38,411 bases of DNA from Candidatus Rokuibacteriota bacterium (GTDB lineage: Bacteria > Methylomirabilota > Methylomirabilia > Rokubacteriales > CSP1-6), in the NCBI GenBank assembly GCA_003221635.1, contig QHSR01000227.1, positions 1 through 38,411 of the forward strand, in the 5' to 3' direction. A program made the position numbers and the translations under genes. Below are positions 8,877 through 37,642 of this stretch, in pieces (within the stretch, counting starts at the first letter, position 1; the number at the start of each line of letters is the position of its first letter). Below the pieces are notes generated by a model. It saw nothing but the letters and a program-made list of their open reading frames with translations, searched no databases and had not been told where the DNA came from.

Positions 8877-9159
8877 GAAGGCAGCCTCTCTTTCCCTGTT
8901 CTGCACGGAACGGCAAGCTGTCTGACGCTGTGCTGAGGGGAGTTTGAGCAAGCGGCGTACCAGCGACAAGATTGCGTCCACCCGTCGTAACTGGCCGGAG
9001 AAAAGGTTGATTTTTCGCGCCATTTCCGGAAGTTCTGGCGGTGGGGCTCGCGACAGGAAGTAATCCTTACACAGTGTTTGATTTTCGGTAACGCGACGCG
9101 GCGAGCAAGGCGACGCTTCCCAGGTGGCCTATGGTCTCCACGCCCGTCGAGCCATCGCC

Positions 9160-9936
9160 TCGGCGTCGCTGATGACCTCGACGACAGCGGGGCAACTGGA
9201 GGCGAGGGCTTTCTCCAGCGCGGGCCTGATGAAAGCGAAGATCGCGCGGGACACGAAGGCGAAGCTGCATCAGAAGGCCCGCGCCGGTCATGCGGCAGGC
9301 GCGACAGTGTTCGGCTACAACCTGATCGACGTGGACGGCCATAAGGAACGCAGCGTGAACGCCGAGCAGGCGAAGGCCGTCGTCCGCGTCTTCGAGATGT
9401 CCGCCGCTGGCTTCGGCAACCGTCGCATCGTCACGGCGTTGAACGCTGAGAGTGTCCCGCGCCTACGGCTCGCGGCTGGTCGAAGGCGGCGATCAAGAGC
9501 ATTCTCCGGCGTGATGTCTACCTCGGGCGCGTGACATTCGGTAAGACACGGAACGACGCGAAGAGCGGCGTGGCCGAGCGCCGCGTGGCGGTCGATCAGA
9601 AAGGCTGGTTCGTGGTTCAGAACGACGGGCTCAGGATCATCTCGGACGAGCTATGGGGCCGGGTCGAGCGACGTCGGCGGAAAACCAATCAGACGTTCGT
9701 CCGCAATCAGCAGGGCCAGCTACACGGGCGTCCCGAGTCCGGGCTCGTCTCGAAGCACTTGATGAACGGTGTCGGCCGATGCTTCGAGTGCGGCGGGCCT
9801 CTGATCTTCGTTCACCGGGGCGGGAAGCACGCGCACCGCGAGCGGCTGGTCGCTGCGCTCGCCACCGGGAGTAAGAGTGCGGCCGTCATTGATGAGATCA
9901 CGAAGCGTGAGGCAGCGATCGAAGTGCTGAAGGTGA
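9160..9936 (+). pseudogene. Frameshifted, N-terminally truncated large serine recombinase remnant
   Basis: From about 9226 the frame reads GLMKAKIARDTKAKLHQKAR, then AGHAAGATVFGYNLIDVDG, then AEQAKAVVRVFEMSAAGFGN, then RRIVTALNAESVP: the start of the Recombinase domain of large serine recombinases. At about 9460-9467 the homology passes to the +2 frame, which reads ARGWSKAAIKSILRRDVYLG and RVTFGKTRNDAKSG. A one-base loss near 9462 would explain this. A zinc-ribbon vestige (CFECGGPLIF) follows, with only one CxxC pair left, then a fragment of the C-terminal coiled coil ending against repeat copy B. The catalytic resolvase domain with its serine is missing, so the gene cannot be active. It marks a former integrative element. 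Confidence 0.8.
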
Positions 9937-24901: not shown

Positions 24902-25440
24902 CTAGCCGAACACGCTGCTCTGCTGGCTGTCGAACAGCGTCGCGTAGATTGGGAGCCGAACGCGGAGCCAGAACTGGATCAGGGCGACAGCGACGACGAT
25001 CCCCGGCAGCCCCAGCGGGATCAGCGAGGCGTAGTCGAGGAGCTTCCGGCCCCGGAGCGTGGTCTGGAGATCGATCCAGCCGACGAGGCTCCCGAGCAGG
25101 ACGGCGAGCGTGGCGGTCGCGCTCGCGAGGATCAAGCTATTCCAGATGGCGCGACGCGTAACGTCGTATTCGAGAAGGACGAAGTGGTAGTGCCGGAGGC
25201 GCCGAGGATCTGCGCCGATTCCTCTGATGGCCGTCGGCGGTGACGCTACCCCATACCAGGAACGCCAGCGGCAGCACGACCTAGCACGGCCAGGGCCAGG
25301 ACCGAGCCCGCCATGACGACGTGCTCCGCGCGTAGGAGCCGCGGAGCGGCCGGGACCGGGTCCAGCGGCGTCGCGATGGTGTTCGTGACCGGCTCAGCCT
25401 CCAACGCGCCCGGCGCATGCCCCGGAAGCTGGCGGCGATT
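24902..25440 (-). pseudogene. Broken ABC transporter permease (iron/FbpB-like)
   Basis: Going down the minus strand, the best-preserved part reads LRHYHFVLLEYDVTRRAIWN, then SLILASATATLAVLLGSLVG, then WIDLQTTLRGRKLLDYASLI, then PLGLPGIVVAVALIQFWLRV: TM segments and loop of an FbpB/PotB-type permease. Upstream, VLPLAFLVWGSVT and a further hydrophobic stretch (VMAGSVLALAVL) occur in other frames, so at least two frameshifts separate them. The coupling motif and the remaining C-terminus are missing; the frame ends at 24902 beside the hairpin repeats. No binding protein or ATPase partner is nearby. Confidence 0.7.
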
Positions 25441-25485
25441 CTATCGGACCGGGCGAGCAGACGGCAATCCAATGCCGGCAGTCCG

Positions 25486-25513
25486 GGAATAAACGTGATA
25501 GCACTTCCGTAGT
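25486..25513 (+). promoter_or_regulatory. Candidate ECF-type promoter of the sigma/anti-sigma operon
   Basis: GGAATA (25486-25491) and CGTAGT (25508-25513) with a 16-base spacer, 23 bases before the sigma-factor ATG. The pattern (GGAA-type -35, CGT-type -10) is typical of ECF autoregulation. I see no second convincing copy further down the block, which suggests one long transcript. Confidence 0.35.
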
Positions 25514-25536
25514 ACTAGTTAGCCGCAGACCGACCG

Positions 25537-26115
25537 ATGCGGGGTTCAATGACGGAACCGTCCGACTTCGAGCGGTTGGTGCTCGAGCAGCTCGATTCGC
25601 TCTGGAACTACGCGCTCAACCTGACCCGACGATCGGATCAAGCGCAGGACTTACTCCAGGACGCCCTCGCGAGAGGATTCGAGCGCTTCGAGCTCTTCGA
25701 CCGGTCGTTGAGCTTCAAGGCATGGATGTTCACGATCATCAGGCACATCCACGTGGACCATCTGCGCAAGAGCGACGCCCTGCGGCCCGAGACCCCAGAA
25801 TGGCTCGCCGAGGGAGCCGCTGAGATCAGTGAGAGTCCGCTCTACGCCATTCCCCTGGACCCTGAAGCCATTCTGGCGCACCGGGAGAGCGTGGAGCGTC
25901 TCCAGGAGGCCATCCGGCATCTGCCGGCTGAGATGCGGGAGGTCATCGAGCTGCGAGACATCGAAGGGCTCTCGTATCGGGAGATCGCCGTCATCGTGAA
26001 GCGGCCCATGGGCACGGTCATGTCACGCCTGTATCGGGGCCGGAACCTCCTCCGTAGCTCTCTCGTCGAGCAGAAGGCGGAGGACAAGAGCGCCGAGAGT
26101 CACCGTGGACTGTAA
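25537..26115 (+). CDS. ECF-type RNA polymerase sigma factor
   Basis: 192 residues. Region 2 is DLLQDALARGFERFELFDRS and LSFKAWMFTIIRHIHVDHLR, with the usual polymerase-binding and -10 recognition residues; region 4 is LPAEMREVIELRDIEGLSYR and EIAVIVKRPMGTVMSRLYRG, a helix-turn-helix for the -35 element. Region 3 is replaced by a linker, as in ECF factors. ATG 25549 is an alternative start. The anti-sigma gene starts inside its last codons (11-base overlap), the standard arrangement for a cognate pair. By position it should control the whole respiratory block to 34628. Confidence 0.93.
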   Translation: MRGSMTEPSDFERLVLEQLDSLWNYALNLTRRSDQAQDLLQDALARGFERFELFDRSLSFKAWMFTIIRHIHVDHLRKSDALRPETPEWLAEGAAEISESPLYAIPLDPEAILAHRESVERLQEAIRHLPAEMREVIELRDIEGLSYREIAVIVKRPMGTVMSRLYRGRNLLRSSLVEQKAEDKSAESHRGL

Positions 26116-26929
26116 CGACGTCAAGGCCCGGATCTTTTCCTATGTCGACGGGGAGCTTGGCGCCGAAGCCCTTGCAGAGATGGAGACGCACTTCACGGGC
26201 TGCGAGGGTTGCTCTCGGTTGGTCGACCTCGAGCTCCGCTTCCAGGCCGCTTACACTCGCCGGCTACGCCCCCAGCTGGTCCCCTCTCAGATACGGGAGA
26301 AGCTCACCCGGGTCCTGGCTGACCTCACGGCTGGTACCCGCGCTCGCCCGCGACGTGCGCTCCGCAAACGGGTGGCGGTGGCGGCCGTCGCCGCTCTTTT
26401 CGTCGCGGTGGGCGCTGGGGCGGCGTTGCTGGCGGAATCGGTCTTCCGTTCCCGCGGATCGCTCGTCGACCTCGCTGAGGCCGCGGTGGAGCAGCACCAG
26501 CGCCTGACGCGGGACGTGCTGCCCCCGGACATCCACGGGGTGTCGCCAAAAATCGCCGAGGACTGGTTCCGCAAGCGCCTGAACTTCAACATCAGTCTCC
26601 CCGACTTGCCGAGCGAGCGCCTGAAGTTCCGCGGCGGCCGCATCTGGCATCTCAACGGCGTGGAGACCGCTGCCCTTGGCTACGAGGTCGAGGGCAGCGA
26701 CGTGTCGCTCTTCATCGTGCCCGGAGAAGCCTATCGCAAGCTCGGCCTCAAGGAGCCGCCGCGGTTCAGGCTCGTGACCAGCCGCGGCTACGACGTGATC
26801 GTCTGGCGGTCCCAGGTAAACGGTGTCGGCTACGCCCTGGTCTCGGAGATCGGGGGGCGCGCCTGCGTCGTGTGCCACTCGCCGGAGGAAATCCGCGAGT
26901 CTGCCGCCACCCTGTCCGCTCATCGGTGA
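26105..26929 (+). CDS. Membrane anti-sigma factor with zinc motif and C-terminal CXXCH haem motif
   Basis: 274 residues from GTG 26105. The N-terminal zinc anti-sigma motif is complete (C3, H29, C33, C36; HFTGCEGC). One membrane helix spans about 90-111. The exported domain (about 115-274) contains conserved-looking blocks NISLPDLPSERLKFRGGRIW and YDVIVWRSQVNGVGYALVSE and ends with ACVVCHSPEE, in which C254-C257-H258 form a canonical c-type haem attachment motif. The domain order (ZAS, TM, periplasmic sensor) is that of stress-sensing anti-sigma factors. A covalent haem in the sensor is not the usual arrangement and would make it a redox, O2 or ligand sensor. Haem binding is inferred from the motif only. 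Confidence 0.88.
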   Translation: MDCNDVKARIFSYVDGELGAEALAEMETHFTGCEGCSRLVDLELRFQAAYTRRLRPQLVPSQIREKLTRVLADLTAGTRARPRRALRKRVAVAAVAALFVAVGAGAALLAESVFRSRGSLVDLAEAAVEQHQRLTRDVLPPDIHGVSPKIAEDWFRKRLNFNISLPDLPSERLKFRGGRIWHLNGVETAALGYEVEGSDVSLFIVPGEAYRKLGLKEPPRFRLVTSRGYDVIVWRSQVNGVGYALVSEIGGRACVVCHSPEEIRESAATLSAHR

Positions 26930-26952
26930 ACGTCTCTGGAGGAGAAGCAGGA

Positions 26953-27616
26953 ATGAATCGGATGGCCACTCACGGCTTGATGGCGCTTGCGGGTGCGGCG
27001 CTCTTCCTGGTGCTCGTCGCCGATCCGGCAGCCCCCTACGAGGAGGCGGCCGTCGCCGACGGCGGCAGCGTCAAGGGCAAGGTCGTCTTCAACGGACCGC
27101 TGCCGTCGAAGCGCAAGATCGTGCCCACCAAGGACCGTGAGGTGTGCGGGAGCGGAATCCGCGAGGTGGACCAGATCACGGTCGGCCCGGACAAGGGCGT
27201 CCAGGAGGCGATCGTCTACCTGGCCAAGGTCGATAAGGGCAAGGCGTGGCCAAAGCCGGCCAAGACGCCGGAAGTGAACAACCTCAAGTGCGACTTCGTT
27301 CCCCACGTGCAGGTGATTCCCCCGGGCGACCTGGTGGTCGTCAACTCGGATCCGGTGCTGCACAACACGAAGAGCTTCTTCGACAGGACGCCCGTCTTCA
27401 ACCTGGCGCTGCCCAATCAAGGCCAGCGAATCACGCGCTCGATCAAGCGCACCGGCATCATGCGGATCGAGTGTGACGCCCACGGCTGGATGCTCGGGTG
27501 GGCGTACGTGGCCGACAACCCCTACTACGCGATCACCTCCAAGGATGGGACGTTCACCATCACCGGTCAAGGCCAAGGAGCCGACGTCGATCACGGTGGA
27601 GCTCACGAAGAAGTAG
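26953..27616 (+). pseudogene. Blue-copper-like (cupredoxin) periplasmic protein with damaged 3' end
   Basis: ATG 26953 follows GGAGGAG. A signal peptide (residues 1-24) precedes a Cna-B-like strand (VKGKVVFNGPLP) and a cupredoxin region with the type-1 copper ligand pattern H137 (VLHNTK) and C174, H177, M180 (ECDAHGWM). The protein should be a periplasmic electron carrier like the methylamine-utilisation-associated cupredoxins. After TFTIT (residue 204) the frame changes: the +1 frame at 27566-27616 reads VKAKEPTSITVELTKK and then a stop, exactly the expected family ending. So about 25 residues plus register were lost at 27565, and the original frame runs on in frame into the metallophosphoesterase. 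The copper site is intact, so the product, or a 616-residue fusion, may still work. Confidence 0.72.
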
Positions 27617-27645
27617 CGGGCGAGGCCCGGGAAGGAGGCAGAGTG

Positions 27646-28803
27646 ATGGATCACCTCCAGGACGAACGACGTGAAATCGCCCGGGCGCTGAAGACGCCCG
27701 GAGCCAGGCCGGATCCGTCGCTGCAGATCACGCGACGGACCTTTGTCCACAAGTCGCTCCTCACCGCCGGGGTGGCCGCCGGCGCCGCGACCTTCGGATG
27801 GTTCCCGCTCATCAACACGGTCGACCTCGCCTGGGGCCAGACCGCGTTCAAGTTCGCGTGGGTCTCGGACACTCATCTCTACCCGAAGAACGTGAACACC
27901 CGCTTCGTCGAGAAGGCCGTGCGGGCGATGAAAGAGGTTCAGGCCATGAACCCGCCGGCCGACTTTCTCATCTTCGGAGGCGACCTGGCCCAGCTCGGTG
28001 ACCCCGTAGAGCTGGACCTGGGCAACGACATCCTCAAGGAGGTGAAGATCCGCAAGGTCTTCATCCCGGGCGAGCACGACTGGTACCTGGACATGGGGAA
28101 GAAGTGGGAGGCGCTGTTCGGGAAGCAGCCCTGGACCTTCGACCACAAGGGGGTGCGCTTCGTCGGTCTCGACACCGTCAGCCGCGCCGCCGACTACTGG
28201 ACGGCCAAGAAAATGACGCCCACGGAGCGCATGGGGCACATGGCCACGTTGGACGGTTCGGTGGCCGGGGCCTGGGCGGGGGTTGGCCGCGACCAGCTCG
28301 AGTGGCTGAACAAGACTTTGTCGAGCTGGGCCAAGGACCGGCCGGTGATCGTCTTCACCCACAACCCGCTCTACGAGTACTACCCGCCCTGGAACTTCTG
28401 GGTGCGCGATTGGCGGGAGGTCCAGGAGGTCCTGAAGCCCTACAAGAACGTGACCAACATCCACGGGCACACGCACCAGGTGCTCTACAACGAGATCGGC
28501 ACGATGCGCTCCATCGGCATGCTGGCCACCTCCTGGCCGTGGCCGTACGCGCCGGACGGTGTGCCGGCCCTCACCAAGTGCCACCTGCGTGCGGATCCGG
28601 GCGACCACTTCGACGGCGTGGGGTGGGCGCAGCTCTCGGTGGCCGCAGCCGGCAAGGTGGAGAACGAATACATGATGTGGCGGAAGAAGGATCACATCCT
28701 CGGTGAGGCTCAGCCGGATTCCGGCTGTGGTGACAACGGCAATCAGATCCTGACCCCGCGCCTGGCTGACCGCGAGTGGGTGTACCCCGGGTCTTACAAG
28801 TGA
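27646..28803 (+). CDS. Tat-exported calcineurin-like metallophosphoesterase
   Basis: 385 residues from ATG 27646, which has a strong AAGGAGG. A twin-arginine signal (ITRRTFVHKSLLTAGVAAG, R30-R31) sends the folded protein to the periplasm. Dinuclear-metal motifs: WVSDTHLY (D75, H77), GGDLAQLGD, GEHD (usual GNHD), VFTHNPL and IHGHTHQ. It shares fold and export route with SoxB (dimanganese thiosulfohydrolase) but lacks the 5'-nucleotidase C-terminal domain and is much shorter. Flanked by a SoxA-like cytochrome and a SoxYZ fusion, it is a candidate for the hydrolytic step on the carrier; a phosphatase role cannot be excluded. The preceding cupredoxin frame is open into this gene. Confidence 0.87.
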   Translation: MDHLQDERREIARALKTPGARPDPSLQITRRTFVHKSLLTAGVAAGAATFGWFPLINTVDLAWGQTAFKFAWVSDTHLYPKNVNTRFVEKAVRAMKEVQAMNPPADFLIFGGDLAQLGDPVELDLGNDILKEVKIRKVFIPGEHDWYLDMGKKWEALFGKQPWTFDHKGVRFVGLDTVSRAADYWTAKKMTPTERMGHMATLDGSVAGAWAGVGRDQLEWLNKTLSSWAKDRPVIVFTHNPLYEYYPPWNFWVRDWREVQEVLKPYKNVTNIHGHTHQVLYNEIGTMRSIGMLATSWPWPYAPDGVPALTKCHLRADPGDHFDGVGWAQLSVAAAGKVENEYMMWRKKDHILGEAQPDSGCGDNGNQILTPRLADREWVYPGSYK

Positions 28804-28817
28804 GGGAGGACGCTACG

Positions 28818-29276
28818 ATGAGGCTCACGCGCTCCACGCTCGCGGTCTCCGCAGTGCTCCTGGCGGTGGTGGCGTTGATGACGATGGGGGCGAATCGCGC
28901 CCTGGCGCACAAGGAAAAGCACACACCCGATCAGCTCAAGATCTTCGAGGACCTCTTCATGGAGCAGGTCAAGCTCGGTGACCTGCTCTTCCACGGTGAC
29001 GGCGCGACCGAGAAGAAGCTGAACGCGCAGCTCTCGAAGACCGGTATGGCCTGCGCCATGTGCCATCCCTTCGCCTCGGACACCCATCCGCACGAGTTCC
29101 CCAAGTTCCAGGAGCAGATGAACAAGTTCGCGACGCTCCGGGACATGATCAACTGGTGTATCGAGAAGCCCAACGAAGGCATCAAGATCAACGACGACTC
29201 AGACGCCATGAAGGCGCTGGAAGCCTACATCTACTGGTCCAACCGCGGTTCGCGGCTCGACGCCGGTCGGCACTGA
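28818..29276 (+). CDS. Periplasmic mono-haem cytochrome c, SoxA/TsdA-like
   Basis: 152 residues from ATG 28818 (GGGAGGACG upstream). Signal peptide to about residue 30 (ANRALA). One haem motif ACAMCHP (C79, C82, H83). After it, FPKFQEQMNKFATLRDMINW, CIEKPNEG and AMKALEAYIYWSNRG follow the C-terminal domain pattern of SoxA and TsdA (rI-x-x-C, then aL-x-aY and a final RG). C114 occupies the position of the haem-ligating cysteine on which SoxA and TsdA carry out thiosulfate chemistry. It is only about half a normal SoxA and no SoxX gene is present. It is 14 bases after the metallophosphoesterase and 33 bases before the SoxYZ fusion. Confidence 0.82.
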   Translation: MRLTRSTLAVSAVLLAVVALMTMGANRALAHKEKHTPDQLKIFEDLFMEQVKLGDLLFHGDGATEKKLNAQLSKTGMACAMCHPFASDTHPHEFPKFQEQMNKFATLRDMINWCIEKPNEGIKINDDSDAMKALEAYIYWSNRGSRLDAGRH

Positions 29277-29309
29277 GGTCGGACGCCCGAGCTATCGTTG
29301 GAGGCTTCG

Positions 29310-30131
29310 GTGACCGCGAGGGCGAGTCGGCTACCACGGCGAGCGTTTCTGCACAGCGGCGTCGTCGCAGGACTCGGACTGCTCGGGATGCGGAGCCCGG
29401 CGGAGTCGGCGGGGCCCCCGTCCGGCATTGCCGACGACGGGGGCGAGCCACCGGTTCTGAGGCTGTCGCGGCTCACCGAGAACGGCGCGAAGGTCCCGGT
29501 CGTCGTCGAGATGACCCACCCGATGGAGCCAGGCCACCACGTCACGTCGGTCCGCGTGGTGAACGATCGCGATCCGATCCCGTCCAAGGGCGAGTTCCAC
29601 TTCACGCCGGCCAACGGCCACGTCTACCTCGCATTCCAGGTGCGCCTCGACGACGGGCGCTCGACCGTGCAGGTCAGTGCCCACTGCAACCGCGGGCGAC
29701 GGTGGTCGACCGCCCGCGAGATCCGTGTGGCCGCGGGCGGCGGCGGGTGCGTCGGTCCCGTGCCGCTCACGGACCGAGGGGAAAGCGAGATCCGTCCGCC
29801 CGTCATCCGCCTGCCGCAGCGCCTGCGCGGGCAACCCATCGAGCCCGGGCAAACCATCGACGTCCAGGTCAAGCTCAAGCATCCCGTGCAGACCGGCCTC
29901 GCGCTGCGCGACGGCCAGTTCGTGCCGGTGGCCGAGCCCTTCTACCTCACCGGGATGGACGTGTTCTACGGGGGTGCGCGCGTGAGTCGCTTCGTGCTGA
30001 CGCCGGCCCTCGCCGACGATCCCCTGATCAGCCTCCGGCTCCGGCCGTGGGACGAGGGACTCCTGCGCGTCGTGTTCCGGAACAGCCGCGGTGCGGAGCT
30101 GGACGCCACGCATCCCATTCGGTTCGGTTAA
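29310..30131 (+). CDS. SoxY-SoxZ fusion sulfur carrier, Tat-exported
   Basis: 273 residues from GTG 29310 with GGAGG 6 bases ahead; TTG 29298 is an alternative. Tat signal LPRRAFLHSGVVAGLGLLG. Residues about 50-148 are SoxY-like (RLTENGAKVPVVVEMTHPME, GEFHFTPANGHVYLAFQVRL, REIRVAAGGGGC). Residues about 163-273 are SoxZ-like (TIDVQVKLKHPVQTGL, AEPFYLTGMDVFYGG, NSRGAELDATHPIRFG). C147 lies in AAGGGGCVGP, equivalent to the GGCGG swinging arm that carries sulfur intermediates in SoxY. Here it is an inter-domain linker instead of a free C-terminus. Fused SoxYZ-like carriers are also known beside quinoprotein dehydrogenases, so a non-thiosulfate carrier role is possible. Confidence 0.85.
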   Translation: MTARASRLPRRAFLHSGVVAGLGLLGMRSPAESAGPPSGIADDGGEPPVLRLSRLTENGAKVPVVVEMTHPMEPGHHVTSVRVVNDRDPIPSKGEFHFTPANGHVYLAFQVRLDDGRSTVQVSAHCNRGRRWSTAREIRVAAGGGGCVGPVPLTDRGESEIRPPVIRLPQRLRGQPIEPGQTIDVQVKLKHPVQTGLALRDGQFVPVAEPFYLTGMDVFYGGARVSRFVLTPALADDPLISLRLRPWDEGLLRVVFRNSRGAELDATHPIRFG

Positions 30132-30167
30132 TCGGTCGAACGCGCTATCCTCGCTCTCGGAGACTGA

Positions 30168-31550
30168 ATGACTGTCACCGAAGCTGCGTTGCGGGAGGTC
30201 TCGTCGCGAAATGACGAGCTGATCAACGCCGACCTGGTGCGGACGTGGCTGGCCTGGGGGCTCGCCTGGCTGCTCTTCTTCCCCACCGTCGGAGTCCTGA
30301 TCTCCACCAAGTTCAACTATCCCGGTTTCCTGGGCGACACGTCGTGGCTCACGTTCGGGCGGATACGGCCGATCCACGTGAACGGCGTCATCTGGGGTGC
30401 CTTCTCGACGCTCTTCATCGGGCTCTGCCACTACATCGTTCCTCGCCTCACCGGAGTGCGTCTCTGGGGCGAGCGCTGGAGCTACGGTGTCCTGTGGGCC
30501 TGGAACCTCAACCTGGTCGCGGCGGTGGTGCTGCTCGGGCTCGGCTGGAACCGGGGCTGGGAGGCGGGCGAGTTCGCGCTGCCCAACGTCGTCGTCACGT
30601 TCCTGGCGCTTCTGCTGCTCACCGTCCAGTTCCTGATGACGATCAAGCAGCGCCGGGAGCGGCCGCTCTACGTGTCCCTCTGGTACCTGATCGCCGCGTT
30701 CATCTGGACCGACGTGAACCTGGTCCTCCTGATGATCGGCCCCTACCACATCCCGGGTATCAACAACGCGGCGTGGCACGGGCTCTTCATCCACTACGTC
30801 GTCGGCCTCTGGATCACGCCGGCGGGCTACGTGCTCATCTACTACTTCCTGCCGGCCAGCGTGAAGAATCCGATTTACAGCCACCGGCTCTCGCTGATCG
30901 GGTTCTGGTCGCTCGCGTTCTTCTATCCCTTCGTCGGCATCCACCACTATCTCTACTCGCCGATCGCCGACTGGGCGGAGACGATCGCGATCATCTCGTC
31001 GATGATGCTGATCATCCCGGTGTGGACCGTCCTGCAGAACTTCTTCGGGACCATGATCGGGCGCTGGCCGGAGTTCTCGCGGAACCTGCCGGCGAAGTTC
31101 CTGATCGTGGGCTCGATCATGTATCTGGTCGGCTGCTTCCAGGGCTCGCTGGAGGCGCTCCGCTCGCTGCAGCAGCCGACGCACTTCACCGACTTCGTCA
31201 TCTCTCACTCCCACCTCACCGTCTTCGGCACCTTTGTGGTGTGGGCGATCGCCGGCACGATGTACGTCTGGCCGCGGCTGGCGCACGACGCCCAGCTGTG
31301 GAGCTTCCGCCTCGGGAACTGGGGATTCTGGCTCGTCACCCTCGGCATCTCGGCGATGGGCCTCGTGCTGACGGCGCAGGGTCTGCAGCAGGGCTTCATG
31401 CTGATGGCCGGTACCGAGTGGGTCCACTCGGTCAACGCAATCCGGCCTTACTGGTGGGTGCGGACGTTCACCGGCATCTCGATGGACCTGGGCATGTCGC
31501 TCCTGGTCTACGCCCTCATGAAGACGTCGCTCGCCGCGCGGGCGACGTGA
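30168..31550 (+). CDS. ccoN: cbb3-type cytochrome c oxidase subunit I
   Basis: 460 residues, about 12 membrane helices. Metal-binding histidines match CcoN: low-spin haem ligand in IRPIHVNGVIWG; CuB histidines in FIHYVVGLWITPAGYVLIYY (with YY for the cross-linked tyrosine) and VGIHHYLYSPIADW; haem b and b3 ligands in HFTDFVISHSHLTVFG. It therefore should be a catalytically complete O2 reductase pumping or consuming protons at high oxygen affinity. ATG 30168 follows GGAGAC weakly. The triple-haem subunit II starts 17 bases after its stop. Confidence 0.93.
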   Translation: MTVTEAALREVSSRNDELINADLVRTWLAWGLAWLLFFPTVGVLISTKFNYPGFLGDTSWLTFGRIRPIHVNGVIWGAFSTLFIGLCHYIVPRLTGVRLWGERWSYGVLWAWNLNLVAAVVLLGLGWNRGWEAGEFALPNVVVTFLALLLLTVQFLMTIKQRRERPLYVSLWYLIAAFIWTDVNLVLLMIGPYHIPGINNAAWHGLFIHYVVGLWITPAGYVLIYYFLPASVKNPIYSHRLSLIGFWSLAFFYPFVGIHHYLYSPIADWAETIAIISSMMLIIPVWTVLQNFFGTMIGRWPEFSRNLPAKFLIVGSIMYLVGCFQGSLEALRSLQQPTHFTDFVISHSHLTVFGTFVVWAIAGTMYVWPRLAHDAQLWSFRLGNWGFWLVTLGISAMGLVLTAQGLQQGFMLMAGTEWVHSVNAIRPYWWVRTFTGISMDLGMSLLVYALMKTSLAARAT

Positions 31551-31566
31551 CGTCGCCCGGAATGCG

Positions 31567-33216
31567 ATGAGATCGATCGGCTCGCTGGCGGTGGGCGCCG
31601 GCTTCTTCTTCGTGACCCTGGCGATGTTCATCCAGGGCTTTCTCCCGGCGATGATCCCGGAGTCGCGGTCCAGGCAAGTGAGTCGCGCGGTCCGGACCGA
31701 TGTGGGCGACGTGAAGTGGGTGCGCTACGACGCGTCCGACTACACGCCGCTCGAGCGTGTCGGCCGCGGCATCTACATCCGCGAGGGCTGCTGGTACTGC
31801 CATAGCCAGTACGTACGGCCGGTGGCCGGTGAAGACCTGCGCTGGGGTCCCGTCTCCGAGGCCGGCGAGTACGCGTTCGATCTTCCCCACCTCTTCTCGA
31901 CGCGCCGGATCGGCCCGGACCTGACGCGCGTCGGGCTCAAGTACGGCGACGACTGGCACTACGCGCACCACTGGGACCCCCGCCTGGTGGTGCCGGACTC
32001 CATCATGCCGAGCTTCAAGTGGCTCTACACCCAGGTGCGCGTCCCGTTGCGACGGACCGACGCGGGCCCGAGCCTGGTACCGTCGGCGGAGCTCAAGCCT
32101 TACTTCACGATGAAGCCCGAGACGTCGATTCCTCTCTATCCGAATCCCGAGGGTCTCGCGTTCGTGTCGCCCCCGGCGAACGCCCAGTGGCCGCTCGACG
32201 GCACGCCGGTGATCGACCTCAAGGGCTTCGGCGATCGACCGCCCACGCTCGAGGCGGTCACCCTGGTGTTTCCCACGGCCGAGCTGGTCGGCCTGGTCCG
32301 GTACATCCAGAAGCTCGGCACCAACCGCGGCGCGTGGCGGGAAGTGTTCGAGCCGCAGGCCGTGGGCGTCTCGGTCATGAACATTCCACGCAGCCAGGAT
32401 CTTCTGGCGCTCGGGCGCGAGGTCTATCAGGCCCGGTGCAGCGGCTGTCACGGAAAGGGCGGAGACGGCAATGGTGCGGCCGCGACCTTCCTCTCCCCAC
32501 GCCCCCGAAACTTCACGCTCGGGGTCTTCAAGTTCCGCACGACACCGTCGGGATCCTTGCCGACCGACGGCGATCTCTACCGCACGGTCACGCGCGGCGT
32601 CCGGTGGACCGCAATGCCCACGTGGCATGAGCTCCCGGACAAGGAGCGACTCGCCGTCGTCACGTTCATCAAGACCTTCTCGAGCCGCTGGAAGGACGAG
32701 CAACCCGAGCCGGCGGCCACGATTGCCGATCCGCCCAAGGCGACCGCCGAGCTCGTCACGCGCGGGAAGGATCTCTATCGGAAGGCCAAGTGCTTCCAGT
32801 GCCACGGCGATAGCGGCAAGGGCGACGGGGTGTCGGCGCCCGACCTGACCGACGACCTCAAGTTTCCGATCCGCCCGGCCGACTTCACGCGCGGCCAGTT
32901 CAAGGGCGGATCGAGCGTGCGCGATATCTTCCGCACCATGACCCTTGGCCTCGACGGCGCGCCCATGCCCTCGTTCGCCGACTCGATGAGCGAGGAGGAG
33001 CGCTGGGCGATCTCGTACTACGTGCTGTCCCTCTCGGCCTGGAAGGACCCGTTGACCGGCGAGCCCCTCAATCTACCGGCCGCCGCGCGCGCGGCGCTCA
33101 ACTCCCCGGAGGCGGGCGCCGATCATCCACGATTCGCCCTCGATCCGGCGCGGCACGACCGAGTCGTGCGGGAGAAACCCATGCCACGGACCTTGTATCC
33201 TGGAGTCCGCGAATGA
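31567..33216 (+). CDS. ccoO: cbb3-type oxidase subunit II fused to a di-haem cytochrome c
   Basis: 549 residues, more than twice a normal CcoO. Residues 1-160: N-terminal membrane anchor (SLAVGAGFFFVTLAMFIQGF), haem motif CWYCHSQYVRP (C75, C78, H79) and the CcoO segment GPDLTRVGLKYGDDWHYAHH with MPSFKWLY. Residues about 275-375: second cytochrome domain, CSGCHGKGGDGNG (C291, C294, H295; likely Met ligand M350). Residues about 395-490: third domain, CFQCHGDSGKGDG (C409, C412, H413; Met in GAPMPSF). The two extra domains are what CcoP normally provides. The stop overlaps the next ATG (ATGA), so the small downstream genes are coupled. Confidence 0.9.
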   Translation: MRSIGSLAVGAGFFFVTLAMFIQGFLPAMIPESRSRQVSRAVRTDVGDVKWVRYDASDYTPLERVGRGIYIREGCWYCHSQYVRPVAGEDLRWGPVSEAGEYAFDLPHLFSTRRIGPDLTRVGLKYGDDWHYAHHWDPRLVVPDSIMPSFKWLYTQVRVPLRRTDAGPSLVPSAELKPYFTMKPETSIPLYPNPEGLAFVSPPANAQWPLDGTPVIDLKGFGDRPPTLEAVTLVFPTAELVGLVRYIQKLGTNRGAWREVFEPQAVGVSVMNIPRSQDLLALGREVYQARCSGCHGKGGDGNGAAATFLSPRPRNFTLGVFKFRTTPSGSLPTDGDLYRTVTRGVRWTAMPTWHELPDKERLAVVTFIKTFSSRWKDEQPEPAATIADPPKATAELVTRGKDLYRKAKCFQCHGDSGKGDGVSAPDLTDDLKFPIRPADFTRGQFKGGSSVRDIFRTMTLGLDGAPMPSFADSMSEEERWAISYYVLSLSAWKDPLTGEPLNLPAAARAALNSPEAGADHPRFALDPARHDRVVREKPMPRTLYPGVRE

Positions 33217-33380
33217 TCGAGCACCTGATGCTCGGAGAGTTCACGGTCGCGCTCTTGATGAGTCTGGCGGCGCTGTGCGCCTTCGTCTGGGGCGCCGCGA
33301 CCGGCGCGTTTCGAGGCCTCGAGACGGCCAAACAACAGGTGCTTCGCGTGGAGGGGGTCGATGAGCGAAGGGACGCCTGA
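33213..33380 (+). CDS. Small CcoS-like membrane protein
   Basis: 55 residues starting inside the stop of the subunit II gene (ATGA). One membrane helix (TVALLMSLAALCAFVWGAAT) followed by GAFRGLETAKQQ resembles CcoS (helix, then sGqFdDLE), a small factor needed to put cofactors into cbb3 oxidase. The classic FDDLE acidic box is only partly kept (FRGLE), so the assignment is tentative. The gene overlaps the next small gene by 20 bases. Confidence 0.65.
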   Translation: MIEHLMLGEFTVALLMSLAALCAFVWGAATGAFRGLETAKQQVLRVEGVDERRDA

Positions 33381-33555
33381 GCGGCACCCGAAGTACGGCA
33401 AGGTGGAGGAGTACGCGCAGGGTGAGATCCGCGCCTATCACGGCATCATCAACAAGTGGCTGCTCCTCGTGTACGCGATCCTGGCCGTCTGGGGCGTCTA
33501 CTATCTCTTCAAGTTCTGGGGCGGGCTCGGACCCGGCCTCGGCGCCGGTCAGTAG
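33361..33555 (+). CDS. Stand-alone CcoP/FixP N-terminal-like membrane protein
   Basis: 64 residues; GGAGGGGG precedes the ATG. HPKYGKVEEYAQGEIRAYHG leads into one helix (NKWLLLVYAILAVWGVYYLF) and a glycine-rich tail. This is the layout of the FixP_N domain that anchors CcoP, but without the haem domains, which here are attached to subunit II. It probably packs against CcoN as the separate CcoP anchor. Confidence 0.65.
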   Translation: MSEGTPERHPKYGKVEEYAQGEIRAYHGIINKWLLLVYAILAVWGVYYLFKFWGGLGPGLGAGQ

Positions 33556-33564
33556 GAGCGCGGC

Positions 33565-33669
33565 ATGCGCGCCGAACGCTTCCTGATACCGCTGGCGCTG
33601 CTGAACCTGGCCGCCCTGATCCTCGGCATCCTCTACAACATCCTCGCGAGTCTTCTGGCCCTCCCGTAG
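33565..33669 (+). CDS. 34-residue membrane microprotein of the oxidase operon
   Basis: ATG 33565 with AGGAG upstream; ends at TAG 33667-33669. After MRAERF the sequence is a single hydrophobic helix (LIPLALLNLAALILGILYNI, LASLLALP). No family is recognised. Its position among oxidase genes, the ribosome site and the clean helix suggest a CcoQ/CcoH-like small subunit or assembly peptide. Confidence 0.5.
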   Translation: MRAERFLIPLALLNLAALILGILYNILASLLALP

Positions 33670-33673
33670 CCCG

Positions 33674-33766
33674 ATGAGCACCGTCGAGAAGGTCGCGTTC
33701 GGATTGTTCCTCGTGGGCACGGTCGCCTTCTTCGTCTGGGTGGCGGTACTGGCCATCCGCAAGTAG
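33674..33766 (+). CDS. 30-residue membrane microprotein of the oxidase operon
   Basis: ATG 33674, four bases after the previous stop; ends at TAG 33764-33766. MSTVEKVAFGLFLVGTVAFF, then VWVAVLAIRK: one helix with a short basic tail, as in other tiny oxidase subunits. No ribosome site of its own apart from coupling to the gene before. Function unknown; probably a single-helix accessory subunit. Confidence 0.5.
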   Translation: MSTVEKVAFGLFLVGTVAFFVWVAVLAIRK

Positions 33767-33779
33767 GATCCGGCGCCGC

Positions 33780-34628
33780 GTGGCCCACGGAGCCGCTCAG
33801 GCAATCGGCGCCGGAACGTCGGGCAATATCTGGTCGGTCGCGACGTCGGCGCCGGGCTCCTGGATCGTGCGAGCCGAGGTCGCCGCGCCTCTCCTGATCG
33901 TGGCGGGCGCCTACGCGGTCGGCTGGTGGCGGCTGCGTCGTCGCGGTGGGACGGTATCGGGCTGGCGTGTCGCCGCGTCTGCAGGCGGCCTCTCGAGCCT
34001 GCTCGTCGCGCTCTCGGCCCCGCTCGACCGGCTGGCGCACGCGAGCTTCGCGGCCCACATGGTGCAGCACCTCCTACTGATCGTCGCCGCCGCTCCGCTC
34101 TTGCTCCTGGCCGATCCGTTTGCGGCCCTCTGCTGGGCGCTGCCGGCGCCGGTCCGCGCGCGCGCGGGCCGGCGGCTACGGCCGGGGGCGCCGTTGCGCG
34201 CGCTCTGGCGCGGGCTCACCGCCGCGTCGGTGGCCTGGCTCGTTCACGTCGCCGCGGTCTGGCTCTGGCACCTGCCGAGCGCCTACGACGCGGCCGTCGC
34301 CGATCGCGTTGTTCACGACGTGGAGCACCTCGTCTTCTTCGGCACCGCGATTCTGTTCTGGTGGCCGATCGTCCAGCCGGCGCCGCGACTGCGGGCGCCG
34401 ACCGGTTACGGCGTCCGCGTGGTCTACCTGGTCCTCACCGCCCTGCAAGGCGCGTTTCTCGGCCTCTTGTTCGCGATGAGCCGCGAGCCCTGGTACCGAG
34501 CCTACCCGAGCGCCGAGGACCAGTCTCTCGGCGGCCTCGTCATGTGGGGACTCGGCGGCGCCGTGGACATGCTGGCCGTGCTGATCCTGGTCGGCTGCTA
34601 TCTCGGGTCGCAGGACCGCACTACGTGA
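33780..34628 (+). CDS. CtaG-like (caa3 type) cytochrome oxidase assembly protein
   Basis: 282 residues from GTG 33780. Six or seven membrane helices and the histidine-rich signatures of the Caa3_CtaG family: SFAAHMVQHLLLIVAAAPLL, AAVWLWHLPSAYDAAV, VVHDVEHLVFFGTAILFWWP and YLVLTALQGAFLGLLFAMSR. This family is needed for copper delivery or assembly of haem-copper oxidases. It closes the oxidase block. The 373 bases after it (34629-35001) hold a candidate promoter and, as far as I can see, no gene; the open minus-strand frame there looks like a compositional shadow. Confidence 0.87.
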   Translation: MAHGAAQAIGAGTSGNIWSVATSAPGSWIVRAEVAAPLLIVAGAYAVGWWRLRRRGGTVSGWRVAASAGGLSSLLVALSAPLDRLAHASFAAHMVQHLLLIVAAAPLLLLADPFAALCWALPAPVRARAGRRLRPGAPLRALWRGLTAASVAWLVHVAAVWLWHLPSAYDAAVADRVVHDVEHLVFFGTAILFWWPIVQPAPRLRAPTGYGVRVVYLVLTALQGAFLGLLFAMSREPWYRAYPSAEDQSLGGLVMWGLGGAVDMLAVLILVGCYLGSQDRTT

Positions 34629-35001: not shown

Positions 35002-35451
35002 ATGACGCGCTTGACGATCAACGGCAGATCGCTCGAGGTCAACGTCAACCCCAGCACGCCCCTGCTGTGGGCTCTCCGGGAGCAGGTCGGCCTCACCGGC
35101 ACCAAGTACGGCTGCGGCATCGCGCAGTGCGGCGCTTGCACGGTGCACATCGACGGCAAGGCGATCCGCTCCTGCGTGATGCCCGTCAGCGCGGCGGTAG
35201 GCAAGCAGGTCACTACCATCGAGGGGCTGGCCGCGAACGGCGTCCTGCACAAGGTGCAGAAGGCCTGGGGCGACCATGAGGTGCCGCAGTGCGGCTACTG
35301 CCAGTCCGGCATGATCATGGCGGTGGCGGCTCTCCTGAAGGACAAGCCGAGGCCGACCGACGCCGATATCGACGCGTCGATCACGAACATCTGCCGGTGC
35401 GGCACGTTCCAGCAGGTCCGTGAAGCGATCCACGCCGCGGCGAAGGCATAG
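35002..35451 (+). CDS. iorA: [2Fe-2S] subunit of molybdenum hydroxylase (isoquinoline 1-oxidoreductase alpha type)
   Basis: 149 residues with GGGAGGGAAGG before the ATG. Two [2Fe-2S] clusters: a plant-ferredoxin-like one ([20 protein letters not shown], then SC) and the helical one ([16 protein letters not shown] and [13 protein letters not shown]). The length and the two-subunit arrangement, with no FAD subunit, match IorA-type rather than xanthine dehydrogenase. Electrons pass from the molybdenum subunit through this protein to a cytochrome or other acceptor. The large subunit starts 11 bases after the stop. Confidence 0.9.
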
Positions 35452-35461
35452 GGGAGAGGCC

Positions 35462-37642
35462 ATGATCACCAAGACTCCGAAGGTCGGCCGCCGCTCCTTC
35501 ATCATCGGCTCCGCCACGGTCGGCGCGGGGCTCGCTCTGGGCCTGAAGATCCCGTTCGGCGCGAGCGTCGTCCGCGCCCAGGACGGCTCGCCCGAGATCA
35601 CCGCCTGGGTGGTCATCCGCCCGGACGACACGGTCGTGATCCGGATCGCGCGGTCCGAGATGGGACAGGGGACGCTCACCGGCCTCGCGCAGATGGTGGC
35701 CGAGGAGCTTGAGTGCGACTGGTCGAAGGTGACGACCGAGTATCCGACGCCCGGCCAGAGCGTCGCGCGCAAACGCGTGTGGGGCGATTTCTCCACGGGT
35801 GGCAGCCGTGGCATCCGCGACTCGCATCAATACGTGCGCCAGGGCGGCGCCACGGCGCGGGTGATGCTGGTCCAGGCCGCGGCCGACACCTGGGGGGTGC
35901 CTGCCTCGGAGTGCAGCGCCGCCAACAGCGTGATCACGCACAAGACCTCCGGCCGCACGACCACGTACGGCAAGGTCGCAGAAGCCGCCGCGAAGCTGAC
36001 CCCTCCAGCAAACGTGTCGCTCAAGGACCCCAAGGACTGGAAGCTCATCGGCAAGTCTGTGAAGCGCCTCGACACGATGGACAAGCTGACCGGCGTGCAG
36101 GTCTATGGTGCGGACCTGAAGCTGCCCGGGATGCTCAATGCCGCGATCAAGGACTGTCCGGTGTTCGGCGGCAAGGTGAAGAGCTTCGAGGCCGCCAAGG
36201 TCACCGGCATGCCGGGTGTCCGGCACGTGGTGCCGGTCGGCGATTCCGCCGTCGCCGTCGTGGCCGACACGTGGTGGCAGGCCAAGACCGCGCTCGACGC
36301 TCTGCCCATCGTGTGGGACGAAGGCCCGAACGCCCAGGTCTCCAGCGCCACGATCGCCGAGATGCTCAAAGCCGGCCTCGACGCCGAGCAGGCTTTCGTT
36401 GGCAACCAGAACGGCGACGCGAAGGCCGCCATCGCCGGCGCGGTGAAGAAGATCGAGGCGGTGTACGCCTATCCGTTCCAGAACCACGCGCCGATGGAGC
36501 CGATGAACGCCACCGCGCGGTACACGGAGGATCGCTGCGAGGTCTGGGGCCCGACGCAGAACGGCGAGGCCGCGTTTGCGGCCACCCTGGCCGCGTCCGG
36601 CCTCCCGGCCGACAAGTGCGAGTTCTACAAGGTGCACCTCGGTGGCGGGTTCGGACGGCGCGTTGCCTACCAAGACTATGTGACCCAGGCCGTCCTGATT
36701 GCCAAGCAGATCCCGGGCACGCCGGTGAAGCTTCTGTGGACGCGCGAGGAGGACATGCTGCATGGCCGGTATCACCCGGTCATGCAGTGCAAGCTGGTCG
36801 GCGCCTTTGACGCCAGCAACAACCTCACCGGCCTGCACATGCGCCTTTCGGGGCAGTCGATCCTCAGCGCCGTACGGCCGGCAGCCCTCCAGGACGGCAA
36901 GGACCCTCTCACGTTCCAGGGGCTCAACGCGACTGGGGACTTCGCCATCGGATACACCATCCCGAACTTGTTGATCGACCATGCGATGCGCAACACGCAC
37001 GTCCCGCCGGGCTTCTGGCGCGGCGTGAACATCAACCAGAATGCGATCTTCCTCGAATGCTTCGTGGACGAGCTCGCGCATGCCGCGGGCCAGGATGCTC
37101 TCGAGTTCCGGCGCAAGCTGATGAGCAAGCATCCGAAGCACCTCGCCGTGCTGAACGCCGTGGCCGACCGGGCAGGATGGGGCAAGCCGGCGTCGCGAGG
37201 TGTGTATCGCGGGCTGGCTCAGATGATGTCGTTCAACAGTTACGTGGCGGCGTGCGCGGAGGTCTCCGTCACCGCCGGAAACAAGGTGAAGGTGCATCGT
37301 ATCGTCGCCGCCACCGATCCCGGGTACGCCGTCAACCCGGCGCAGATCGAGCGGCAGATCGCCGGGTCGTTTGTTTACGGCCTGTCCGCGCTGTTCATGG
37401 AGGAGTGCACGGTCAAGGCCGGCCGCATCGAGCAGACGAACTTCCACGCCTACGACTCGATGCGGATCGCGCAGATGCCGAAGGTCGAGTCGATCATCAT
37501 GCCGTCCGGCGGGTTCTGGGGCGGCGTCGGCGAGCCGACGATTTGCGTGGCCGCGCCGGCGGTCCTCAACGCGTTCTTCGCCGCCACCGGCAAGCGGATC
37601 CGCACGTTCCCGCTGAAGAATCACGGCGTCCAGATGGTGTAG
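35462..37642 (+). CDS. iorB: Molybdopterin-binding subunit of IorB-type molybdenum hydroxylase, Tat-exported
   Basis: 726 residues from ATG 35462 (GGGGAGAGG upstream). A twin-arginine signal (VGRRSFIIGSATVGAGLALG) indicates periplasmic maturation. Cofactor-binding segments: RSEMGQGTLTGLAQMVAEEL, VHLGGGFGRRVAYQDYVTQA, FWRGVNINQNAIFLECFVDE and FWGGVGEPTICVAAPAVLNA, the last with the catalytic glutamate of GVGE. IorB-type enzymes hydroxylate N-heteroaromatics or oxidise aldehydes; the exact substrate is unknown. It needs a sulfurated Mo-cytosine-dinucleotide cofactor, and no maturation gene is adjacent. A short secreted ORF follows 6 bases later. Confidence 0.92.
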   Translation: MITKTPKVGRRSFIIGSATVGAGLALGLKIPFGASVVRAQDGSPEITAWVVIRPDDTVVIRIARSEMGQGTLTGLAQMVAEELECDWSKVTTEYPTPGQSVARKRVWGDFSTGGSRGIRDSHQYVRQGGATARVMLVQAAADTWGVPASECSAANSVITHKTSGRTTTYGKVAEAAAKLTPPANVSLKDPKDWKLIGKSVKRLDTMDKLTGVQVYGADLKLPGMLNAAIKDCPVFGGKVKSFEAAKVTGMPGVRHVVPVGDSAVAVVADTWWQAKTALDALPIVWDEGPNAQVSSATIAEMLKAGLDAEQAFVGNQNGDAKAAIAGAVKKIEAVYAYPFQNHAPMEPMNATARYTEDRCEVWGPTQNGEAAFAATLAASGLPADKCEFYKVHLGGGFGRRVAYQDYVTQAVLIAKQIPGTPVKLLWTREEDMLHGRYHPVMQCKLVGAFDASNNLTGLHMRLSGQSILSAVRPAALQDGKDPLTFQGLNATGDFAIGYTIPNLLIDHAMRNTHVPPGFWRGVNINQNAIFLECFVDELAHAAGQDALEFRRKLMSKHPKHLAVLNAVADRAGWGKPASRGVYRGLAQMMSFNSYVAACAEVSVTAGNKVKVHRIVAATDPGYAVNPAQIERQIAGSFVYGLSALFMEECTVKAGRIEQTNFHAYDSMRIAQMPKVESIIMPSGGFWGGVGEPTICVAAPAVLNAFFAATGKRIRTFPLKNHGVQMV

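Follow-up and report, generated by a model that had tools for sequence, protein, structure and literature searches.

What is the purpose of an operon that joins a copper protein, a phosphoesterase, a small cytochrome, a SoxY–SoxZ fusion and a haem-copper oxidase? The question is raised by contig QHSR01000227.1 of a Candidatus Rokuibacteriota bacterium (assembly GCA_003221635.1), analysed here as a stretch of 38,411 nucleotides, the window; in its bin of 5.17 Mb (completeness 88.8%, contamination 5.2%) it is contig C174. The original prediction described a minimal sulfur-oxidising system wired to a cbb3-type oxidase, with a short phosphoesterase in the place of SoxB and a half-size cytochrome in that of SoxAX. 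Its observation is confirmed and its interpretation partly supported. All the genes that it named are present in one collinear block on the + strand within 25485–34628, as judged from open reading frames (ORFs), Pfam and NCBIfam; the nine main genes (25537–34628) were identified by the two latter. The unit starts further upstream than was supposed, with a promoter motif and a pair of genes for an extracytoplasmic function (ECF) sigma factor and its anti-sigma factor (25537–26929). The module is a regulated block of exported Sox-like proteins, usually beside an oxygen-using oxidase, and is found in soil, marine and root-associated bacteria. We tentatively propose, at somewhat less than an even chance, that it is a separately regulated periplasmic Sox-like accessory module that would act on a carrier-bound sulfur compound and deliver electrons to oxygen.

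The conservation of the module was assessed in two samples. The class set holds 95 genomes, in which orthologues of the metallophosphoesterase (MPE) were counted at no less than 298 bits and the oxidase at no less than 700 bits; DNA around 20 of the 23 class MPE orthologues was taken for locus comparison. Scanning 84,980 species genomes yielded 368 matches to the pattern, with 314 relatives confirmed among them, and the best 80 of these 314 are the named loci to which counts out of 80 refer. For the MPE, the cytochrome and the copper protein, residues were aligned across the 80 named loci, 11 of those 20 class loci and the window itself. Gene-order conservation, which the original prediction had proposed as a check, is evident in both samples. 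Besides the window, the regulator pair and the genes that follow it recur in 11 other class loci. By tblastn, L038–L044 and L050–L052 carry sigE-asig-cupr-mpe-cytA-soxYZ-ccoN-ccoOP, followed by ctaG in all but L038 and L040, whose DNA is truncated; in L056 the contig ends inside cytA. Other arrangements are cupr-mpe-cytA-soxYZ with no oxidase in L045–L049 (family f10, with which a Methylomirabilis record of the same class groups), soxYZ upstream of cupr-mpe-cytA-ccoN-ccoOP-ctaG with no sigma pair in L055, a divergent mpe-cytA with no soxYZ match in L054 and L057, and an MPE orthologue broken in pieces, plus a cytochrome, in L053 (genome G043, 8555–9560).

Among the named loci, mpe is found in 80, cupr in 79, cytA in 78, ccoN and ccoOP in 68 each and the sigma pair in 13, and cupr-mpe-cytA stand in this order in 77; the three exceptions are L117 and L131, whose contigs run out within or beyond the MPE, and L132, whose MPE is broken. 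These loci span Alpha-, Beta- and Gammaproteobacteria, SAR324, Nitrospirae, Deltaproteobacteria, Binatia, Tectomicrobia and others. SoxYZ, which the original prediction listed in the block, is optional and outside the constant core: SoxY(Z) lies in the operon in only 18 of the 80, in L101 as separate genes. A further 34 loci have Sox-related genes within about 11 kb, namely separate SoxY/Z together with flavocytochrome c sulfide dehydrogenase (FCSD) in 27, SoxY/Z alone in 2 and FCSD alone in 5 (calls by tblastn, with Pfam confirmation for L114 only; PF21706, 157.7 bits). As for other neighbours, the Methylomirabilis-type loci L045, L048, L054 and L063 have genes for MauG-type di-haem and beta-propeller proteins close to the module, and no oxidase; the MauG assignment is confirmed by Pfam in L048.

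A reading of the MPE as a short SoxB was rejected. The SoxB model TIGR04486 gives no match to the MPE at E 0.001, the nearest solved structures are GpdQ and Rv0805, and in the MPE tree SoxB forms a terminal branch about 10 changes per site long. SoxB, L054, L055 and L057 are all on long branches in this tree, which makes their placement unsure, and 26 of the 91 MPE loci are omitted from it as near copies or fragments. The sequence comparisons assign the MPE to the CpdA/GpdQ type and not to SoxB. Its predicted metal site is strictly conserved, with Asp75, His77, Asp113, Glu143, His144, His239, His275 and His277 invariant wherever the residue is present (90–92 of 92 rows), and all 92 rows have the motif GEHD, with Glu for the metal-site Asn, where the aligned GpdQ has GNHD. 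The tree mixes phyla, which is consistent with gene transfer.

The SoxA/TsdA-type identity of the cytochrome was upheld, as was the genomic tie of the module to SoxYZ, to which a tie to FCSD in rhizobia can be added. The CxxCH and NWC motifs are invariant in 90 of 90 rows, and the candidate ligand Cys114 is aligned with the Cys of the SoxA chains 1h31 and 2c1d and of TsdA 4wq7, which we take to be a haem ligand in those proteins. The protein thus has the features of the PF21342 domain, CxxCH and the aligned Cys, and scores 32 bits against SoxA TIGR04484, under the cut-off of 110. The key Cys of SoxYZ is also real, and only its number changes, from C147 to C151 with the TTG at 29298 taken as start. 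Cys130, Cys151 and Gly150 are invariant in all 18 rows, in agreement with a carrier arm that is internal and not C-terminal. The fusion passes the Pfam cut-offs for SoxY and SoxZ, and lies below those of TIGR04488 (SoxY, 45.2 bits, cut-off 125) and TIGR04490 (SoxZ, 32.2 bits, cut-off 76). No SoxCD-type family was found among the nine operon proteins scanned with Pfam and NCBIfam, a search limited to the operon and not extended to the rest of the genome.

The copper protein has His137, Cys174, His177 and Met180 invariant in 91 of 91 aligned rows, presumably as the type-1 copper ligands. The window copy gives no Pfam match, and a complete relative in L042 bears a CarboxypepD_reg tail. Compared with L038, the 3' end of the window gene (27480–27640) is short by about 71 bases, which leaves the frame open in phase into the MPE as an ORF of 643 residues (26872–28803). 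This loss may be a real deletion or an assembly error.

The oxidase had been described as a complete cbb3-type enzyme. Its CcoN aligns along the length of cbb3 CcoN chains, with the CuB histidines, the haem histidines and the YSxRLS tyrosine in line, residues for which we assume the same roles in CuB and haem binding and in catalysis. The catalytic residues of CcoN are thus present, and the protein scores 210 bits against the CcoN equivalog TIGR00780 (cut-off 583). The enzyme is a non-canonical cbb3 set, in that the CcoO and cytochrome subunits are fused. A nitric-oxide reductase was considered and rejected, as the best-matching chains are cbb3 CcoN and NorB reaches 36.8 bits only. L038 (7603–10628) and L041 (13240–16262) have a further ccoN/ccoOP pair upstream of the sigma gene; identity to the window pair is about 75% and 69%. 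In a gammaproteobacterial version of the locus (L123, L124, L127, L128, L130 and L136) ccoN is about 30% identical, and L123 continues with a longer series of genes for c-type cytochromes.

The wiring of the block to the oxidase is only partly borne out. A ccoN with more than 50% identity is near in 62 of the 80 named loci, in 52 of them within 3.5 kb after cytA, but in the class set 15 of the 28 genomes with the oxidase are without MPE (13 have both), and 10 of the 23 with MPE are without the oxidase. Among eight congeners of the window genome none has the MPE and seven have the oxidase. In five congener loci (L139, L140, L142, L143 and L144), sequence resembling the window just upstream of the promoter (match ending at 25332–25471) gives way, after no more than about 200 bases, to sequence resembling it just upstream of or in ccoN (from 30112–30210). 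The block is thus absent as a whole. In genome G050 (L138, 8719–10057) the same upstream DNA leads into a cytochrome remnant of the final 30 residues, then an open SoxYZ and the oxidase; this shows a deletion there. In L141 no matching upstream DNA was found. A strictly dedicated oxidase was rejected on these grounds, since many class genomes hold oxidase or MPE alone and the congeners keep the oxidase without the upstream block.

The regulators set the operon apart. A relaxed motif, GGAATAA-N14..16-CGTA, precedes sigE in the window and in 11 class loci, with no other occurrence in the loci examined; the single match to the promoter motif in the window compares with a mean of 0 in 100 shuffles. 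In 8 of 12 class genomes with the module, the strict form, GGGAATAA-N14..16-CGTAG, has a single occurrence, always at the module operon, and it is absent from the other 4; in the window's own genome the sole copy is that before sigE, and the reversed pattern gives 0 in all 12 genomes. Since the strict motif is single and placed at the module, this operon is probably the only target of the sigma factor in the 8 genomes. A conserved promoter motif before its own gene is what is expected of an autoregulated ECF sigma/anti-sigma operon, and we infer that the motif is bound by the operon's own sigma factor. It was not found at five divergent sigma pairs of other phyla (L064, L065, L067, L069 and L129). 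The anti-sigma factor carries an invariant C-terminal CxxCH (Cys254, Cys257 and His258 in 12 of 12 class members; window region 26864–26929), which is also found in five of five divergent homologues (including L065 7527–8378 and L129 6383–7225), whose gene pair is oppositely oriented. This invariance suggests a haem or redox sensor. Profile comparisons gave the outer domain no kinship to known haem proteins beyond CxxCH; a relation to P460 was rejected, because hhalign covers 17 columns around CxxCH only, at a probability of 15%. If the suggestion is true, an ECF switch of a single promoter, paired with a CxxCH anti-sigma factor, would be unusual among periplasmic sensors. The features of the operon are listed in Table 1. 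Beyond it, a [2Fe-2S] subunit and the large subunit of a molybdenum hydroxylase with a twin-arginine translocation (Tat)-type start were recognised by eye at 35002–37642; similar genes lie on contig C106 (L006).

Table 1. Positions in the window of the promoter motif and genes of the module operon.
Feature	Position	Strand	Basis
ECF-type promoter motif GGGAATAA-N15-CGTA	25485..25511	+	Pattern match, shuffles, genome counts
ECF sigma factor (sigE)	25537..26115	+	Pfam Sigma70_r4_2 57.4 bits, Sigma70_r2 47.8 bits
Anti-sigma factor (asig)	26105..26929	+	Zinc-finger N-terminus (zf-HC2 34.6 bits); one likely membrane segment (by eye); outer domain with terminal CxxCH
Amicyanin-like type-1 copper protein (cupr)	26953..27612	+	Invariant copper-site residues; window copy without Pfam match
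Metallophosphoesterase (mpe), 385 residues, Tat-exported (by eye), GEHD	27646..28803	+	Metallophos PF00149 52.2 bits, cut-off 21.5
Mono-haem SoxA/TsdA-domain cytochrome (cytA), one CxxCH, candidate Cys ligand	28818..29276	+	SoxA-TsdA_cyt-c PF21342 37.6 bits, cut-off 27
SoxY-SoxZ fusion (soxYZ), Tat-like start (by eye), internal GGC arm	29298..30131	+	PF13501 SoxY 65.6 bits, PF08770 SoxZ 43.6 bits
CcoN-like haem-copper oxidase subunit I (ccoN)	30168..31550	+	COX1 228.9 bits
CcoO fused to two cytochrome c domains (ccoOP), three CxxCH	31567..33216	+	FixO 154.4 bits; Cytochrome_CBB3 in two stretches
Two small membrane ORFs, CcoQ-like by position	33214..33555	+	Read from sequence
CtaG-type oxidase assembly factor (ctaG)	33780..34628	+	Caa3_CtaG 189.9 bits

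The original prediction had named a full Sox set elsewhere in the same genome as evidence against it. Such a set is largely present, because contig C84 of the bin carries two soxXA fusions, soxY, soxZ (72.9 bits, cut-off 76) and SoxB (783 bits, cut-off 550); SoxC and SoxD were not searched for in the genome. Elsewhere in the bin, C106 has a SoxY with an AACIE-type arm next to an SQR-like flavoprotein (L006, 6783–9462), and C92 has a SoxYZ fusion that stands apart from any module (L007, 11865–12632). Of 46 module-bearing genomes examined for Sox genes, 41 have SoxY and 16 have SoxB over the cut-off, with partial or divergent SoxB of 200–480 bits in five more. Some 25 to 30 of the 46, most of them with SoxY, are thus without SoxB over the cut-off. 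For genomes with SoxYZ and no SoxB, which would need another way to free oxidised sulfur, the module supplies a candidate hydrolase and cytochrome, and it does so in cultured genera, among them Bradyrhizobium, Mesorhizobium, Cupriavidus and Thiocapsa.

The predicted export-type starts, the metal, copper and haem sites, the carrier Cys, the oxidase residues and the promoter motif can be read directly from the sequences, and together they allow a mechanism to be outlined. The outer domain of the anti-sigma factor would sense a periplasmic signal through its CxxCH, as a haem or redox site, and free the sigma factor, whereupon the operon would be expressed. The SoxA/TsdA-type cytochrome, with its putatively Cys-ligated haem, may then join a reduced sulfur compound, thiosulfate or, where FCSD is present, sulfane sulfur delivered by it, to the arm Cys of SoxYZ. 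The two-metal MPE would hydrolyse the carrier-bound product, a role like that of SoxB in the classical pathway, and electrons would pass by way of the cytochrome and the copper protein to the cbb3-like oxidase; in Methylomirabilis a different sink would take the place of the oxidase. In the window's bin the module would work beside the soxXAYZB set and not in its place. Several observations count against this proposal. The module has no SoxX, as the best match to the SoxX model (29.9 bits, cut-off 61) falls inside the CcoO fusion. Both SoxYZ and the cytochrome are under the NCBIfam cut-offs for true Sox proteins, the best NCBIfam model for SoxYZ is a quinoprotein-dehydrogenase-associated carrier (TIGR04557, 88.2 bits, cut-off 140), and kinship of the MPE with SoxB is undetectable by models, structures or tree. 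Nothing Sox-like is nearby in 28 of the 80 named loci, several of them on short contigs, and SoxY is undetectable in 5 of the 46 module genomes. In four of these five (L085, L091, L104 and L119) the ccoN-ccoOP pair lies upstream, and the cytochrome is followed by a P460-like gene (Pfam-confirmed in L119). A link between SoxB and the MPE in the class was looked for and none was seen, with SoxB in 8 of 23 genomes with MPE and in 29 of 72 without. The weakest step concerns loci with no SoxYZ in the operon, for which the proposal has to suppose either a carrier gene at another place in the genome or no carrier at all.

A widespread variant of Sox-like machinery is nevertheless the likeliest reading, and its main rival is a set of electron donors and accessory proteins for the cbb3-like oxidase with no sulfur role. 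Here the copper protein and cytochrome would feed the oxidase, the MPE would cleave a phosphoester or aid maturation, and SoxYZ would be a later add-on. The 62 named loci with no SoxYZ in the operon agree with such a role, as do the frequent position of the oxidase directly after the cytochrome and the retention of core and oxidase in the four SoxY-free genomes. So do the Sco1-like genes of 35 of the 80 loci (Pfam on L106) and the P-type ATPase-like ORFs (48) and DsbD-like gene (46) of the 91 loci, named by eye from ORF clusters, many of which were anti-sense and were disregarded. We consider this role unlikely all the same, as MPE and oxidase so often occur apart in the class, the congener oxidase persists without the upstream block, and both the haem-adjacent Cys and the recurrent SoxYZ and FCSD are left unexplained. 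A thiol-carrier pathway for one-carbon or other carbon compounds, with a carbon adduct on SoxYZ, the MPE as hydrolase and quinoprotein- or MauG-like electron input, would account for TIGR04557 as best model and for the MauG-type gene (L048) and beta-propeller genes (L063) beside the core in Methylomirabilis-type loci. In PMC11237559, other SoxYZ fusions cluster with pyrroloquinoline quinone (PQQ) alcohol dehydrogenase and soxH, or with xoxF. The TIGR04557 score is under its cut-off, however, no quinoprotein dehydrogenase or SoxH is among the nine operon proteins scanned, and the rhizobial locus L114 has FCSD instead, so that this pathway is doubtful.

Two further accounts have still lower probability. 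The window copy could be functionless, by decay or assembly damage, as the bases absent from the copper gene, the congeners without the block and the remnant in G050 might indicate; with the remaining genes open, the invariant residues intact and the promoter motif retained, we regard this as improbable. Periplasmic nitrogen-oxide or detoxification respiration, to which the P460-like gene of the four SoxY-free loci and a c554-type multihaem gene in L065 could point, is very improbable, since the P460 match is confined to 4 of the 80 loci, is not seen among the window genes scanned and leaves SoxYZ unexplained. As for the Sox-like reading itself, its furthest-reaching form would make the module a second widespread Sox-type pathway, with a GEHD two-metal phosphoesterase of no detectable SoxB kinship as hydrolase, a mono-haem Cys-ligated cytochrome for SoxAX and a c-haem (CxxCH) anti-sigma factor switching one operon. 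This is somewhat unlikely.

The gene set was not found described as a unit in the open-licence literature searched, and the available passages of PMC11237559, PMC6620896, PMC6292899 and PMC12670364 contain no description of the module. Comparison with known systems is accordingly made part by part. As in the classical Sox pathway (SoxXA, SoxYZ and SoxB), there is an exported carrier with a GGC arm, a SoxA/TsdA-type haem domain with a conserved Cys, a protein of the phosphoesterase fold and an oxidase as likely electron sink. Unlike that pathway, SoxY and SoxZ are fused with the arm internal, SoxX is missing, the phosphoesterase is of the CpdA/GpdQ type with GEHD, and the classical set of the same bin is found on another contig. 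The carrier families built on SoxYZ fusions (TIGR04557, and SoxYZ-S2 and S4 of PMC11237559) share the fusion, but the window protein is below the model cut-off and its partners are the copper protein, MPE and cytochrome in place of PQQ dehydrogenase and SoxH. With the thiosulfate dehydrogenase TsdA the cytochrome has in common the domain and the position of the Cys, but it is about half the size and has one CxxCH where TsdA has two. The class III phosphodiesterases GpdQ, CpdA and Rv0805 supply the solved structures and NCBIfam models nearest to the MPE, which differs from them in its GEHD motif, its Tat-type start and its synteny with cytochromes. Finally, the oxidase resembles the cbb3 (C-family) enzymes in the catalytic residues of CcoN and in its CcoO domain, and is set apart by the fusion of CcoO to two cytochrome c domains and by a CcoN far below the equivalog cut-off.

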